Below, piece by piece: positions 2,655-34,928 of a DNA stretch of 52,921 nt. A model generated the notes under the pieces. The model made no database searches, had not been told where the DNA came from, and saw only the letters and a list, made by a program, of their open reading frames with translations. The translations under genes were made by a program, and so were the position numbers. This stretch comes from Acidimicrobiales bacterium (GTDB lineage Bacteria > Actinomycetota > Acidimicrobiia > Acidimicrobiales > Aldehydirespiratoraceae). Within the stretch, counting starts at the first letter, position 1. Each line of letters begins with the position of its first letter. The stretch spans positions 1-52,921 of the forward strand of contig JAQWLJ010000045.1 in NCBI GenBank assembly GCA_029247365.1, given 5' to 3'.

Positions 2655-3185
2655 ATGGTCGTTGAGTTCGTAGACCCCCGCAGTGAGTCGGCGATCGAAC
2701 CGCATACCTACGACCTCGCCGTCGTTCTTGAGCCCGGGATCACCGTGGGCCTGCTCGCCAACGGCTTCCCCGACTCGGTCGCCTTCCTCGACGCCGTCGC
2801 AGATGCCATCGCCGAACTGCGGCCCGAGATCGGTTTCTTCCGCTACAACAAGGGCGACGCGTCGGCCATCGCCAACGATGCCATGCTCGGCGACATCGAG
2901 GGTGCGTGTGCCGCGGTCGTTGCGGCGTACGGGCATTGAGGCAGCTGCACCACCGGCACCGTGCGTGACGGAATGAACGTGGCACTCCGAGGAATCCCGG
3001 CCGTTGCGCTGGTCACCGAGGAGTTCTGGGCCCAGGGTGACTTCATCGCAGCGTCGTTCGGCATGCCTGACGTGCCGCGGGTACAGCTACCACATCCCAT
3101 TGCGGGCACCGGTGCCGAGAACCACCGTCTCGTGGCCGAGAACGTCGCGGCTGAAATCATTGACTCCCTCGAGCCGAGCGGTTGA
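2655..3185 (+). CDS. UGSC-type selenoprotein (copy 1), TGA at 2937-2939 read as selenocysteine
   Basis: Conventional gene calling breaks this gene in two. Reading TGA 2937-2939 as Sec gives one 176-residue protein with Sec95-Gly-Ser-Cys98 followed by TTGTVRDG, the U-G-S-C motif that names the UGSC (seleno)protein family. Both halves are conserved with the second copy at 31519-32037: GLL near residue 32, a FLDAV segment near 44, an AV helix just before U, then RGIPAVALVTEEF and PHPI after it. A hairpin at 2959-2971 provides a SECIS candidate. The biochemical function of the family is not known to me; a vicinal Sec/Cys pair suggests thiol redox chemistry. Its stop overlaps the start of the partner gene (TTGA at 3182-3185), implying translational coupling. 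Alternative: a pseudogene, which is unlikely because the same TGA recurs in the other copy. Confidence 0.87.
2959..2971 (+). promoter_or_regulatory. Candidate bacterial SECIS hairpin of UGSC copy 1
   Basis: CCGT (2959-2962) pairs with ACGG (2968-2971) around the loop GCGTG. The loop begins 23 nt after the TGA and its first base is G, matching the loose bacterial SECIS rule (short upper stem, G in the first loop positions, roughly 16-37 nt from UGA). The stem is only 4 bp. Confidence 0.5.
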
Positions 3186-4192
3186 CCGAGATGCTCGAAG
3201 CTGCCGACGAGGCTGCTGCGCTCGAACGTCTGCACGACCTCGGCTGCACCGATGGTCTCCCCGTCGTCATCCCCACGCGACAGCGAGTTGATCGTATGGT
3301 GCTCGCCGTCGGCCATCCCGGCGAGGTCGCGCTGGGGACAATGGGCCCGCTCAACGGCGTTTGTACCGTCGAGAAGCTCGCGGTCGCTGCGGTGATGGCA
3401 GGCTGTCTACCCGACCACATGCCGATTGTCACCGCAGCCTCGTTGGCGATCATGGACCCCGAGTTCGACCTCGCTGAGATGCAAGGCACGACGCATGCCA
3501 CGGCCCCGCTGATCATCGTGAATGGCCCTGCGCGCCAGATGTGTGGTCTCGCGTCGGGGTACGGCGCCCTCGGGCCGGGCCACCGAGCGAACGCTTCGAT
3601 CGGTCGAGCGATCCGCCTCGTCATGATCAATGTTGGTGGCGCCCGTCCCGGTAAATCCGATATGGCGCTCCTCGGCCATGGTGGCAAGTTTGGTCAGTGC
3701 CTCGCCGAGGACGAGGAACACAGCCCCTTCACGCCACTCCACGTTGGTCGGGGTTCTGTCTTGTCAGACTCGGCGGTCACCGTCATCGGCACGGAACCAC
3801 CCCAGTCGGTTGCTCACAGCGCCGGCTCCGATGTCGCACAATCTGCGGAACGGTTGCTTGACGTTCTCGCCGGTTCGCTTACCGCCCCGGGTACCAACAA
3901 CAGCTGGCTCGGAGGTGGGCAGGCCGTTGTGGTCATCACGCCCGACCATGCTGGTGAGCTCGCGTCGGCTGGCCACGACCGATCCTCGATCGCTGCCGCG
4001 ATCACCAAGCGTGCCCGTACCCGCGACGGTCGGCCCGCCTTCGGATCGCCGGACGATGTCCTCATCGTCGCGGCCGGTGGCGCTGGCCTTTACTCGTACG
4101 TGTTCCCCACCTGGTGTGCAGGTGGGCACCGCAACCGGGCGGTGAGTCGACCGGTCGAGATCGGGCATGCTTGCGCCATTCCCGGTGCCTGA
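3182..4192 (+). CDS. UGSC-associated partner protein (copy 1), no thioredoxin domain
   Basis: A 336-residue protein of unknown function that is clearly homologous to residues 145-482 of the protein at 32034-33482. Shared blocks are DGLPVV-PT (residues 24-32), CTVEK (61-65), VMAGC-P (71-77), PxxIVNGP, LGxGxRAN-IGRA, NxGGxxPG and LAEDEExSP. Cys61 and Cys75 are kept in both copies and are candidates for a thiol relay or metal site. It has no signal peptide or membrane segment. The start is the TTG overlapping the UGSC stop; an ATG at 3191 is an alternative. Overlap with the selenoprotein gene, repeated in the second locus, says the two products act together. The upstream thioredoxin-like domain of the second copy is missing here. 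Confidence 0.72.
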   Translation: MTEMLEAADEAAALERLHDLGCTDGLPVVIPTRQRVDRMVLAVGHPGEVALGTMGPLNGVCTVEKLAVAAVMAGCLPDHMPIVTAASLAIMDPEFDLAEMQGTTHATAPLIIVNGPARQMCGLASGYGALGPGHRANASIGRAIRLVMINVGGARPGKSDMALLGHGGKFGQCLAEDEEHSPFTPLHVGRGSVLSDSAVTVIGTEPPQSVAHSAGSDVAQSAERLLDVLAGSLTAPGTNNSWLGGGQAVVVITPDHAGELASAGHDRSSIAAAITKRARTRDGRPAFGSPDDVLIVAAGGAGLYSYVFPTWCAGGHRNRAVSRPVEIGHACAIPGA

Positions 4193-31518: not shown

Positions 31519-32037
31519 CTACTGCGGGCCGGTCAGCGTTGCGATCAGGGCATCAACGCTCGCGTCGGCGATCACCCGCATCTCGTCGTCGGTGCGATCC
31601 TGGATCGGGTGGGGCGTGAAGACTCGCGCACTCGGATGACCGAGCGCCTGGGCCTGGGTCTCGGCGGCATCGATAAAGCCCTCGGAAGCCACGAAGACCC
31701 CGGGAATGCCGCGTCGTTCAAGGTCACTGATGTCGTGCACACTGCACGTCGTGCAGCTGCCTCAATCAGCGAGCGCTTCGATGACTGCGTCGCATGAGGT
31801 GGCGATCTCGTGGCGCAGGTCGACGGGCGCCGGTTTCGCGAACGTCGGCTTGATGTAGCGGTTGACCGACGCTCCCATTGAGGTGAGGCGTTCCTCGACC
31901 CGGTCAAGGAAGACGTCGCCGCGAGGTTTGGAGATGTCGAGGAGGCCGATGGTGAGGCCGTCGAGAGACTCGGGGCGGGCGACGAGTTCGCGCTGTTCGG
32001 CACGGGACTCGCTTGTCGGATCGAGGACGGTGGTCAT
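31519..32037 (-). CDS. UGSC-type selenoprotein (copy 2), TGA at 31762-31764 read as selenocysteine
   Basis: As in copy 1, a TGA splits the gene; reading it as Sec gives 172 residues with Sec92-Gly-Ser-Cys95 followed by TTCSVHDI. A third thiol, Cys98, follows the motif here. Shared with copy 1 are TIGLL near residue 29, FLDRVEE near 43, CDAVIEALA before U, RRGIPGVFVASEGF after it, and PHPI. The only window copies of this family both keep TGA, and a 6-bp stem with a GTG loop follows at 31734-31748. The ATG at 32037 overlaps the stop of the partner gene (ATGA) and AAGGAG lies 8 bases upstream within that gene, so translation is coupled. Function unknown; redox by motif. Confidence 0.88.
31734..31748 (-). 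promoter_or_regulatory. Candidate bacterial SECIS hairpin of UGSC copy 2
   Basis: On the minus strand CGTGCA pairs with TGCACG around the loop GTG, which starts 19 nt after the TGA with G first. An alternative stem, CTGCAC with GTGCAG around GAC, starts only 5 nt after the TGA, so the two could exchange. Confidence 0.58.
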
Positions 32038-33482
32038 CGGGTGATCTCCTTCGTCGTGCAGACGCTACCTTTTGGCGGTGGAATCCAGCCACCGAAGGCC
32101 ATTGAGAACAGGCCGGTTTGGCCTCCTGCGTGAATGACGTGAATACCGCCGGGCCAGAACTTCGGCACCACCCGGCCCGCCATCTCCGGTGCCGCTCCCT
32201 CGTCGATGCCGTCGACGCCCCGCATGATGTCGTCAGTCTGGATCGTCAGGTGAGATTCGAGTTCTTCGATGAACCGGGCTCGGTCCCAGCCAGCGTCGTG
32301 GAACCTCGACATGTGCTCGGGGCCGATCACCAAGACCGTCTCCATCATTGCCATTCGGGGTGCGACGTTGGTGAGCAGTGACTTCGCGAAGTGTCTGACG
32401 AGAGAGTCTGGTGTGCGGGAGAGCTGATCGACCATGATCGTTGGGCCACCGCCGCACCAGACGGTGACGGTCGACTGTTCGGCGGTGAACCCTCGGCTCT
32501 GTGCGAACGAGTCCCACGGTGACCCTTCCTCGTCTTCGGCAAAGGCGAGGCCGAGCTTGTGCGGGCTGCCGTGGGCCGAACGGTCGACGCCGCCAGGCTG
32601 CCCACCACCGATGTTTCGGATGATGAGTTGCACTGCCCGACCGATTGTCGAGTTCGCGCGGTTGCCCTGACCGAGCACGTTGCCACCCGAGTTCATCCCG
32701 ATCTCATTGCGAATTGGACCGTTCACGATCAGGATCGGCCCGACGTCCATCGTGGTAGCGAGGACCCCGTGCATATTGAATTCGTCGGAACAGACGGCCT
32801 CAACTGCGGCGATCACCACCGGCAGGTACTCGGGTTTGCAGCCAGCCATGACTGCGTTGATTGCGATTTTCTCGACCGTGCACTCGACAAGGTCTGGCGG
32901 GGCGATTGCGACGACCTCGTCGGCGTGGCGCGTGGTGCCCTCGAGCATGCGGAGAACCCGCGCCTCGGTGGGAGGTACGACGGGCAGGCCGTCTGAGTAG
33001 TTGCGGTCGTGCATCGCTTCCCACTCGTCTTCGAGTGACGCGATCTCGATCCGGCGACTGGTCATCGCCGACCCGGAGAAGCGAACGGCGAGCTCATGGG
33101 CAAGATTCGGGTCGACCGACAGCGAGCCGCAACCGGGCCGCCAGTCGGGAAGATCGGCGCCAAGGTCGGCCACGCCGGTGAAGGCCTCCCACTTTTCGCG
33201 CCACCAACCTTCGATTCGCTCGGTGGGCCTACCGTTCTCGACTTTGAGCAGGGTTGGCACGGTGACGATGTCGTTGTGCCACGACAATGCGAGGTCAGCA
33301 TCGTGGACAACCCAATCGGCGGCAGCCGGAAACGTCGCTTCGTCCTGGGTGATGGTGGTGATCGACGAGCGGTCGGCCAGGTCGACAAGCACTGGCGCAA
33401 CGAGCACACAGGTTGGGCAGTCCTGCTTGACGACCGCAACCAGACCGTCAGGGAGTGGAGCGGATGAACTCATGCCGCTCAT
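32034..33482 (-). CDS. UGSC partner protein (copy 2) fused to an N-terminal thioredoxin-like domain
   Basis: A 482-residue two-domain protein. Residues 10-110 are thioredoxin-like: VAVVKQDCPTCVLVAP has the CxxC pair Cys22/Cys25, VTVPTLLKV has the cis-Pro 76, and EGWWREKWEAFTGVADL ends the fold. Residues 145-482 are homologous to the whole of the partner at 3182-4192, with DGLPVVPPT, CTVEK (Cys201), NAVMAGC (Cys215), PILIVNGP, GNRANSTIGRA and LAFAEDEEGSPW. A Cys118 sits in the linker. The fusion strongly suggests that electrons pass from the thioredoxin-like domain to or from the selenoprotein encoded by the overlapping next gene. There is no signal peptide, so the system is cytoplasmic. Starts at ATG 33482, with ATG 33473 possible. 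Confidence 0.77.
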   Translation of the reverse strand: MSGMSSSAPLPDGLVAVVKQDCPTCVLVAPVLVDLADRSSITTITQDEATFPAAADWVVHDADLALSWHNDIVTVPTLLKVENGRPTERIEGWWREKWEAFTGVADLGADLPDWRPGCGSLSVDPNLAHELAVRFSGSAMTSRRIEIASLEDEWEAMHDRNYSDGLPVVPPTEARVLRMLEGTTRHADEVVAIAPPDLVECTVEKIAINAVMAGCKPEYLPVVIAAVEAVCSDEFNMHGVLATTMDVGPILIVNGPIRNEIGMNSGGNVLGQGNRANSTIGRAVQLIIRNIGGGQPGGVDRSAHGSPHKLGLAFAEDEEGSPWDSFAQSRGFTAEQSTVTVWCGGGPTIMVDQLSRTPDSLVRHFAKSLLTNVAPRMAMMETVLVIGPEHMSRFHDAGWDRARFIEELESHLTIQTDDIMRGVDGIDEGAAPEMAGRVVPKFWPGGIHVIHAGGQTGLFSMAFGGWIPPPKGSVCTTKEITR

Positions 33483-33558
33483 ATTCGCACAAGGTCGACG
33501 CCGCGGTCGGAGATGAGACTTCCGTCACTCAGCCTGTTCCAGCTGTGCGCTGGTGTTC

Positions 33559-33564
33559 TACCGT
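33559..33564 (+). promoter_or_regulatory. -10 box TACCGT of the metallo-beta-lactamase-fold gene
   Basis: TACCGT is 9 bases before the ATG at 33574 and favours that start over the in-frame GTG at 33553. Confidence 0.45.
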
Positions 33565-33573
33565 GGCGGACTC

Positions 33574-34452
33574 ATGCAAGGTCACTCGTCGGCAGATGTG
33601 GTCATTACATTTCACGGTGTTCGAGGTTCAACGCCGTGCAGCTGCCCCACCCTCGCCCGCTATGGCGGAAATACGAGCTGTATCTCCGTCGAGACGGCTG
33701 GGCAGGATCCGATCATCCTCGACCTCGGCACCGGCCTCCGCACGTTTGGAACCGGTTGTGAGCGCGATGGGATGACGGCCCACGCACTTCTCACCCATCT
33801 CCACTGGGACCATGTCCAGGGTTTGCCGTTCTTCGCGCCGCTGCACCACTCGGATTCCTCGCTCACCGTCTACGGGCCCGGCGATGGCTCGGCCGAATCG
33901 CTCGCTGATTGCATGGCTCGGTTCATGGCGCCCCCCTTCTTCCCCATCACGGCAAGCGATCTGCCGGCCAGCGTGTCCTTCGTCGACGCGCTCGACGCCG
34001 ATTTTTCGATCGGCGAGACAACGGTCATGGCTCGCTCCATCCCTCACACCGGCCCAACAGCCGGTTTTCGTATCGAGTGCAGCGGTGTGTCGATTGCGTA
34101 CCTGCCCGACCATCAAGAACCGCTCGACGACAAGACGTACGTGGCGCCCGGTGCGCTCGAGCTGTGCAGCGATGTCGACGTATTGATCCACGACGCGCAG
34201 CTCACCACTGACGAGTTTGCCCAGATGTCGCATTGGGGTCACAGCACGCCGACGTACGCCCTCGAGGTTGCGCGGCAGGCAGGGGCGAAGACGCTCGTTC
34301 TTTTTCACCATGATCCGAGTCATGATGACGACGCTGTCGACGTCATCTGCGAGGAGACCCGCCAGCTTGCTGCGGCCGATGGCATCGAGGTCGTGGCGGC
34401 AATCGAAGGACAGAAGCTCACGCTTCCCGCCCTGACTGGAGCAACGACATGA
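33574..34452 (+). CDS. Metallo-beta-lactamase-fold hydrolase
   Basis: A 292-residue MBL-fold protein. ITFHGVRGSTPCSCPTLARYGGNTSC opens the fold, LLTHLHWDHVQGLPFF is the HxHxDH zinc motif, SIPHTGPTAGFRIE gives the next ligand, DVLIHDAQLT the bridging Asp and LVLFHHDPSHDDD the last His. This subgroup resembles cyclic-nucleotide phosphodiesterase or RNase Z-like hydrolases (the HGVRGSTP opening recurs there), but the substrate is unknown. Its stop overlaps the flavin reductase start (ATGA at 34449-34452), so it heads a short operon. Confidence 0.82.
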   Translation: MQGHSSADVVITFHGVRGSTPCSCPTLARYGGNTSCISVETAGQDPIILDLGTGLRTFGTGCERDGMTAHALLTHLHWDHVQGLPFFAPLHHSDSSLTVYGPGDGSAESLADCMARFMAPPFFPITASDLPASVSFVDALDADFSIGETTVMARSIPHTGPTAGFRIECSGVSIAYLPDHQEPLDDKTYVAPGALELCSDVDVLIHDAQLTTDEFAQMSHWGHSTPTYALEVARQAGAKTLVLFHHDPSHDDDAVDVICEETRQLAAADGIEVVAAIEGQKLTLPALTGATT

Positions 34453-34928
34453 CGATCGACCCCGGTGACTTCCGGCGGGTTCTCGGCCACTTCCCAACCG
34501 GTGTCACCGTTGTGACCGGCTCGGGCGACGACGGTCCAGCCGGCATGGCGATTGGTTCGTTTGCGAGCATTTCGCTCGACCCGCCGCTCGTGATGTTCTG
34601 CCCGGGCAAGGAGTCTGGTGCATGGCAAATGATTCGCGAGACGGGTTCGTTCTGCGCCAACATCCTTGGCGACGACCAAAAGGACGTATGCGGCGTGTTT
34701 GCCATGCCGTCCGACGACCGGTTCGCCGGGATCGACTGGACCACTGACGCCACGGGTTCGCCCGTCCTGCCCGGCTGTGTTGGACATATCGACTGTGACA
34801 TTCACGCCATCCTTGACGGCGGCGACCACGACATCGTGCTTGGCCTCGTCAAGTCGCTCGCTGTCACCGGCGAGCAGGGGCCCCTTGTCTTCTTCCAGGG
34901 TGGATACGGGCGCTTCGATGCGTTGTAG
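34449..34928 (+). CDS. Flavin reductase-like, FMN-binding split-barrel protein
   Basis: A 159-residue split-barrel protein of the flavin reductase domain family. FRRVLGHFPTGVTVVTG is the standard N-terminus, GMAIGSFASISLDPPLVMFCPGKES the flavin-binding strand and loop, and FCANILGDDQKDV the next helix. Such proteins reduce FMN or FAD with NAD(P)H for a partner monooxygenase, or act as stand-alone reductases. No two-component monooxygenase is adjacent. The overlap with the MBL gene implies coupled translation. Confidence 0.85.
   Translation: MTIDPGDFRRVLGHFPTGVTVVTGSGDDGPAGMAIGSFASISLDPPLVMFCPGKESGAWQMIRETGSFCANILGDDQKDVCGVFAMPSDDRFAGIDWTTDATGSPVLPGCVGHIDCDIHAILDGGDHDIVLGLVKSLAVTGEQGPLVFFQGGYGRFDAL

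Follow-up and report, generated by a model that had tools for sequence, protein, structure and literature searches.

A cassette of two overlapping genes lies at positions 31519-33482, on the minus strand, of the 52,921-nucleotide stretch of Acidimicrobiales DNA analysed here (contig JAQWLJ010000045.1, hereafter the window). One gene encodes a selenoprotein of the UGSC family and the other its partner, a protein with an N-terminal thioredoxin-like domain. The two almost certainly constitute a real two-gene selenoprotein module, and we slightly favour the view that their products are halves of one thioredoxin-dependent selenoreductase, which perhaps cleaves a C-X bond in the manner of the glycine and proline reductase proteins GrdB and PrdB. 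The cassette comprises the following features:

31519-32037, minus strand: UGSC-family selenoprotein of 172 aa, selenocysteine (Sec) at residue 92, motif UGSCTTC (PF24696, E 8.6e-46; NF041046, E 5.3e-46)
31762-31764, minus strand: in-frame TGA, predicted codon of Sec residue 92 of UGSC
31732-31750, minus strand: hairpin resembling a bacterial Sec insertion sequence (SECIS), with a 3-nt apical loop; the window copy forms 6 of the 8 pairs typical of the clade
32034-33482, minus strand: partner protein of 482 aa in a stop-free frame, an N-terminal thioredoxin-like domain followed by a core without Pfam or NCBIfam model
33168-33482, minus strand: thioredoxin-like domain of the partner, residues ~1-105, assigned from the model of its relative L118
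33408-33419, minus strand: CPTC redox motif, partner Cys22 and Cys25
33129-33131, minus strand: partner Cys118 in PGCGS of the linker that joins the thioredoxin domain to the core
32838-32840, minus strand: partner Cys215 in MAGC, in the core
32034-32037, minus strand: ATGA, 4-nt overlap of partner stop and UGSC start, from the reading frames

The 172-aa protein is a full member of the UGSC family. It scored 156.3 bits against NF041046 (cut-off 125) and 156.6 bits against PF24696 (cut-off 25), and its [UC]GSC motif has a TGA codon at the Sec site together with the SECIS-like hairpin. A chance match is excluded, since both curated cut-offs are exceeded and relatives of the partner mostly hold a UGSC gene in their locus. 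The translation around Sec reads ADUGSCTTCSVHD, with one in-frame TGA. The sequence-only reading, an earlier inspection of the same DNA without database searches, had described a UGSC cassette with TGA in the motif and overlapping frames, and both features were borne out (TGA at 31762-31764, 4-nt ATGA).

The Sec-site codon was TGA in all 85 readable rows of the clade whose partners carry the fused thioredoxin domain (the thioredoxin clade; L089 counted twice, window included). The hairpin of this clade is a stem of eight pairs with a 3-nt loop, beginning 11 nt 3' of the TGA; all eight pairs were formed in 62 of the 85 rows, seven in 17 and six in 6. On average the stem had 7.65 of 8 pairs (84 distinct rows) versus 4.76 (maximum 5.27) for random synonymous codons, and its mean energy was -15.2 versus -10.4 kcal/mol. 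Codon-column shuffles were barely exceeded (7.65 versus 7.59, maximum 7.62), therefore the case for the hairpin rests on conservation relative to random synonymous codons and not on covariation. Where the seventh motif position is Trp, its TGG codon pairs with CCA in the hairpin of those clades. Only 1-4 of the 8 pairs were formed by the four Cys homologues, although two have other stable hairpins. Outside the thioredoxin clade, 6-8 of the 8 pairs were detected in 11 of 16 TGA rows, among which L091 and L112 in fact belong to the clade but are truncated by the contig end, and L013 and L069 represent a single place. Only 1-5 pairs were formed in L038 and in the fusions L029/L071, L072 and L074.

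The source genome encodes a tRNA-Sec with anticodon TCA (64 bits), selA directly followed by the gene of a SelB-type factor, and selD. We searched 44 genomes (22 with UGSC, 2 with partner only and 20 without UGSC) for tRNA-Sec, judged by score and not by anticodon. A tRNA of at least 58 bits was found in 18/18 genomes with a TGA-type UGSC, including the source genome, in 1/3 with Cys-type UGSC only, in 0/1 with the Met type, in 8/20 lacking UGSC and in both partner-only genomes. In Candidatus Blastococcus massiliensis the Sec site of UGSC is TAG (L090:11293-11295) with the hairpin sequence kept, and the tRNA-Sec of this organism has the anticodon CTA, which reads UAG; ARAGORN labelled it Pyl, and the locus is the best match to RF01852. 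According to the available text of PMC5330540, a UAG-coded UGSC from the same bacterial family as Blastococcus has already been published. That the TGA might instead be a real stop, the gene a truncated pseudogene or sequencing error and the pairing mere chance is very improbable, as nothing favours it except the in-frame stop itself. As judged from the sequences, this explanation is already contradicted by the same TGA in 85/85 clade rows, by coding sequence conserved 3' of the TGA, and by the hairpin, the decoding machinery and the UAG/CUA swap. The predicted Sec decoding of the UGSC TGA is well supported.

The pairing of the two families was analyzed in 296 genomes of the phylum, with UGSC called by cut-off and the partner by a core profile. 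UGSC was above cut-off in 22 genomes and the partner profile matched in 24, which included all 22 UGSC genomes (Fisher 3e-31, uncorrected for kinship). UGSC was absent from only two of the 24 genomes with the partner: in one the partner occurs as tandem repeats, and the other has a fragment of 155 residues. Partners free of UGSC were therefore not routine in this sample, as the sequence-only reading had expected of a two-component system. A contig of 9.2 kb without UGSC match (L070) holds two divergent open reading frames (ORFs) of ~660 and ~780 aa with tandem partner domains. Two more genomes with PF24696 matches (E <0.001, below cut-off; L031, L032) encoded flavoproteins and were dropped.

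A scan of species genomes detected at least 563 relatives of the partner, a family for which neither Pfam nor NCBIfam has a model. The best 80 were kept, and by their titles belonged to Actinomycetota, Acidobacteria, Chloroflexi, several proteobacterial classes and others. The thioredoxin domain was found in 77 of these 80, the remaining three beginning at a contig end. UGSC was present in the locus of 75, for 73 of them within 1 kb (3 divergent), and it was more distant in L098 (3.9 kb) and L096 (7.4 kb). Among the five without UGSC, L093 and L132 end at a contig end, L115 and L152 had none in the remaining 1.3-1.9 kb and L133 had none in 21 kb. The UGSC loci L168 and L169 showed no visible partner and lie at contig ends. 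UGSC and partner are naturally fused in L029, L072 and L074. Fusions in which Met replaces Sec (DMGTS) were also seen (L030/L073, L194, L272), and genes for aconitase X and DUF126 lie near L194 and L272, on Sporomusa and Vibrio plasmids. Two partners stand beside one UGSC in haloarchaea and others, which suggests hetero-oligomeric partners. Two partner genes per UGSC were counted in L232, L234, L197, L269, L276 and L277, and L229 contains two complete cassettes facing each other.

The partner had no credible model at E up to 1: the best Pfam match was TraF (0.058), followed by SDA1_HEAT (0.16), and the sole NCBIfam match was perm_prefix_1 (0.091). Its N-terminus likewise gave no Pfam thioredoxin match at E up to 1. 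The read-through model of L118 (partner, linker and UGSC; predicted local distance difference test, pLDDT, 91.3; predicted template modelling score, pTM, 0.86) nevertheless has a thioredoxin fold in residues 3-102, for which VIA gave Z 9.5-10.3 over 80-102 residues at a root mean square deviation (rmsd) of 2.1-3.4. The N-terminus therefore shares with thioredoxin and TlpA-type domains the fold, a CxxC motif and Val-Pro-Thr at the cis-Pro position, which was present in at least 41 of the 42 partner-bearing rows of alignment A2. It differs from them in lacking the Pfam match, in its CxTC motif (CPTC in the window) and in its place N-terminal to the core of fused loci. The thioredoxin-like N-terminus with CPTC (residues 22-25) and cis-Pro that had been read from the sequence was thus confirmed.

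The partner core was also modelled alone (342 residues, pLDDT 91.1, pTM 0.91). Foldseek found nothing in the PDB at E up to 0.001, and the best VIA Z was 6.2. The best Foldseek match was a class I fumarase (E 2e-3, probability 0.66), with a VIA Z of 4.9 to 7xky_A, below noise. Absence of a fold match does not show a new fold.

Cys22, Cys25, Cys118 and Cys215 of the partner were conserved in 42/42 rows of A2, and U92, Cys95 and Cys98 of UGSC in 37/37 rows of the thioredoxin clade. Cys201 and Cys215 had both been named as conserved partner cysteines. Cys215 stood (52/52 rows in alignment A5, 27/28 in A1); Cys201 did not, being C in 32/52 rows of A5 and 4/28 of A1, and was rejected as a relay residue. 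Cys118 had been overlooked.

The UGSC protein is related to a known reductase domain. TIGR01917 (glycine reductase selenoprotein B) was matched by 16 of 27 UGSC members at E up to 0.05 (best 1.2e-6), and in hhalign UGSC aligned with GrdB proteins of the same phylum, whose Sec stands in UGTGTR motifs (E 6.2e-5), with Sec over Sec and through the HP motif. By these comparisons UGSC is related to the C-terminal domain in which GrdB/PrdB carry Sec. The UGSC part of the L118 model (residues 511-662) was placed by VIA with Rossmann-like chains. The top Foldseek match of the whole model was flavodoxin 5lji (2.9e-4); this match came without a range, and the UGSC part is presumably the region concerned. 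A thioredoxin-like fold was suggested for UGSC in 2008 (PMC2398784, available text). The models do not support it, since VIA puts the UGSC part with Rossmann-like chains and residues 3-102, in the partner, with thioredoxins. Sec-type GrdB proteins with UGTGTR motifs (L178-L189) also occur in Actinomycetota genomes, and PF07355 (the GRDB region) was matched in 64/296 genomes, many times by the C-terminal part only, with one match in the source genome (C17:97850-98212).

Among the VIA matches of the UGSC part, a chain from the activation complex of methyl-coenzyme M reductase scored best (Z 12.7 over 130 residues, rmsd 2.9). This match would suit a division of labour in which catalysis falls to the partner and UGSC serves as its Sec-based activator or maturase, delivering reducing power or selenium, as would the loci with one UGSC shared by two partner genes and the two genomes with partners only. 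However, a common fold proves no function, and the mostly 1:1 occurrence of UGSC and partner, which are sometimes fused, fits subunits better; we consider an activator quite unlikely.

The cassette resembles GrdB/PrdB (TIGR01917, TIGR01918, TIGR04483, PF07355) in having Sec in UxxC(xxC) on a homologous C-terminal domain, in a probable dithiol or thioredoxin electron donor and in a second, putatively substrate-binding component. It differs in that UGSC lacks PF07355, no match to which was found at E up to 1 in the window UGSC or the partner, and in that relatives of the pair include haloarchaea and genera usually regarded as aerobic. The glycine reductase reaction uses up thioredoxin dithiol. 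For this enzyme and proline reductase, the proposed intermediate is a selenoether between Sec and carbon, and its cleavage is proposed to leave a selenenylsulfide (PMC10298544, available text). C-F cleavage has been proposed for a GrdB-type protein, the fluoroacetate reductase farACEB of Synergistota (PMC10838667, available text). As described there, farACEB likewise combines a GrdB-type Sec protein and a partner in a reduction that does not concern amino acids; it has homologues of GrdB and GrdE, whereas the cassette has only the Sec domain and an unrelated partner.

Sec coding, the pairing, the relatedness to GrdB and the thioredoxin fold of the partner N-terminus are read from sequences and structure models, and the scheme that we infer is as follows. 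UGSC would be a free-standing protein related to the C-terminal, Sec-carrying domain of GrdB/PrdB, and the partner core the other subunit, which probably holds the substrate. The selenolate of U92 would attack the substrate, and a selenenylsulfide with Cys95 or Cys98 would result. The fused thioredoxin domain, perhaps via Cys118, would re-reduce the selenenylsulfide, with electrons passing from NADPH through the thioredoxin reductase of the cell to this domain. By analogy with the action of GrdB/PrdB on C-N bonds, the enzyme might reductively cleave an activated C-X bond of a small carboxylate. Non-fused cassettes would draw on free TrxA/TrxB or on a two-Cys tail of the partner.

Thioredoxin reductase genes were found beside cassettes without the fusion. 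A protein search of plasmid records gave the partner on 24 records, all <60% identity, of which 19 were examined. In Arthrobacter sp. ERGS1:01 the genes trxB, trxA, partner and UGSC are consecutive, in Roseovarius sp. THAF8 trxB follows and adjoins UGSC, and in Variovorax sp. SRS16 trxB lies two genes upstream of the partner. A profile built from three of the ten trxB-like genes eventually found (thresholds 1e-20, then 1e-10) detected such genes in 5/49 non-fused versus 0/83 fused loci, and in 5/25 versus 0/3 loci fetched later. Combined, these are 10/74 non-fused versus 0/86 fused loci (p 3e-4), a count made over flanks of differing length and related loci, in which three of the 49 non-fused loci are fused loci cut at a contig end and a weak match at the end of L276 (76 residues) was left out. 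All ten proteins have CxxC near residue 130.

A second thiol arm may be seen in the partner tail. In the discovery set, 74 rows with fused thioredoxin had Cys as residue seven of the motif, which is the third Cys position of UxxCxxC. Among 15 non-fused cassettes with this third Cys, 13 had a two-Cys partner tail, one had an N-terminal CX4C and one had trxB-trxA upstream. With Trp or Tyr at this position no tail cysteine was present (0/13), and with Gly there was one tail Cys (7/7). L235 was scored as having no tail Cys and L231 as having two. The set excludes L196 (partner frame apparently broken), L091 and L112 (thioredoxin part cut by the contig end), L156 (Cys one place later, CX4C tail), the fusions L071, L072 and L074, the loci L073, L192, L194 and L170 (motif Met-type, unrecognised or cut) and loci lacking a UGSC or partner match. 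With three fused loci included, the held-out loci gave a two-Cys arm in 5/8 with the third Cys versus 1/15 without (p 0.009); in another five held-out loci UGSC was missing or of the Met type. We treat the rule linking third Cys and thiol arm as a lead, not a law.

The electron route from thioredoxin-like domain through partner cysteines to selenoprotein, as first proposed from the sequence, is thus supported, though not proven, by the trxB-like genes near non-fused cassettes and the two-Cys tails, with the relay through Cys201 removed. It is likely that the module is thioredoxin-driven.

Genes around the thioredoxin clade gave little indication of a pathway. Flavin-reductase genes were found in 20/107 loci, metallo-beta-lactamase genes in 19/107 and MutY-type genes in 15/107. 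No conserved operon beyond the two genes was detected, the recurring neighbours being on the opposite strand wherever readable. These neighbours were taken as shared synteny because of this orientation and because the loci are actinobacterial or of the same phylum. In the window, genes for a beta-lactamase-fold protein and a flavin reductase (33553-34928) lie on the other strand and start ~70 bp away from the start of the partner gene. Beside non-fused cassettes, 141 of 147 chosen proteins were surveyed (six long ones omitted), and the neighbours were mixed: CoA-transferase III (6), LysR (6), luciferase-like (5), SDR (5), amidohydrolase (5) and acyl-CoA dehydrogenase (3). At most, this list hints at catabolism of organic acids.

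Peroxidases are common among the selenoproteins of aerobes, and UGSC might accordingly be a selenium-dependent peroxidase or repair reductase acting on peroxides or oxidised thiols, with the partner and its thioredoxin domain only recycling it. The thioredoxin domain, the relay cysteines and the lack of an operon beyond two genes in the thioredoxin clade fit such a role, and a general redox role was inferred in the 2008 marine survey (PMC2398784, available text). However, UGSC matched GrdB-type models and Rossmann-like chains, neither peroxiredoxins nor thioredoxins being among the listed matches of the UGSC part, the large conserved partner core would lack an explanation, and non-fused cassettes often adjoin CoA-transferases, LysR regulators, solute transporters and amidohydrolases. 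A peroxidase or repair reductase therefore appears unlikely.

Several results weigh against a thioredoxin-dependent reductase of the GrdB kind. The hhalign probability for UGSC and GrdB was just 65%, and the window UGSC scored far under the TIGR01917 cut-off (19.8 versus 602.2 bits). The partner has no detectable similarity to GrdB (hhalign E 0.37) and matched no NCBIfam model of the pyruvoyl-bearing companion GrdE/PrdA. In 64 of the 74 non-fused loci the examined stretch held no trxB-like gene. The tail rule was weaker in the held-out non-fused loci (third Cys 2/5 versus 1/15 without, p 0.14), and a tree of 62 partners gave only two supported independent contrasts, so that the association is not proven beyond ancestry and its phylogenetic independence was not shown. 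Finally, no third gene recurred in more than 20/107 loci of the thioredoxin clade, hence its substrate is without genomic clue.

Reductive C-X cleavage by the module, proposed by analogy, is conceivable, though we lean slightly against it. The broadest form of the proposal is tentative, and we would not call it probable: two-component selenoreductases would form a widespread class, distributed over many phyla and, in the Cys form, haloarchaea, with a detached GrdB-type Sec domain, a substrate-binding subunit without described family and interchangeable thiol arms (fused thioredoxin, CX4C/CxxC tail, free TrxA/TrxB), carrying out glycine-reductase-like bond cleavage in organic-acid metabolism. 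If true, such cleavage would enter the general organic-acid metabolism of non-clostridial organisms. Since a partner, a family tie and a candidate donor can now be named, purified pairs could be assayed for turnover of defined organic acids with NADPH, TrxB and TrxA.

The selenoprotein itself is not new. UGSC-containing proteins are a family already in print in marine selenoproteome papers (PMC2398784; PMC13188914), and one fusion of UGSC to an unnamed domain (Unknown_1) was reported in 2008, with a redox role inferred there (PMC2398784). Unknown_1 may be the UGSC partner. In the available parts of the published accounts naming UGSC, the family (NF041046/PF24696) is described alone and without function, and we found neither the partner nor the thioredoxin fusion described, nor the tie to GrdB or the trxB neighbourhood. 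The cassette had first been put forward as the best candidate for an undescribed system, which does not hold for the selenoprotein family. UGSC and its Sec were already known; what is added here is the partner that constantly accompanies UGSC, its kinship with the glycine and proline reductases and a candidate for the electron donor.

Two other cassettes are present in the source genome. The first, on the opposite strand of the window, had also been noticed in the sequence and is real, with the same two families at 2655-4192:

2655-3185, plus strand: first-cassette UGSC selenoprotein, Sec at residue 95 (TGA 2937-2939), motif UGSCTTG
3182-4192, plus strand: first-cassette partner without thioredoxin domain, with the single-Cys tail ACAIPG; start codon uncertain

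It belongs to a separate clade, has the reversed gene order and lacks the thioredoxin domain; downstream of its TGA a different fold is predicted and the clade stem is absent. A sulfatase gene (PF00884; 257-2608) lies upstream. A third UGSC and partner, again of the two families, were found ~2 kb apart on contig C21. By eye, a sulfatase-like ORF (L069:3420-5207) lies alongside this third cassette and a GcvT/DmdA-like ORF stands between its partner and UGSC.

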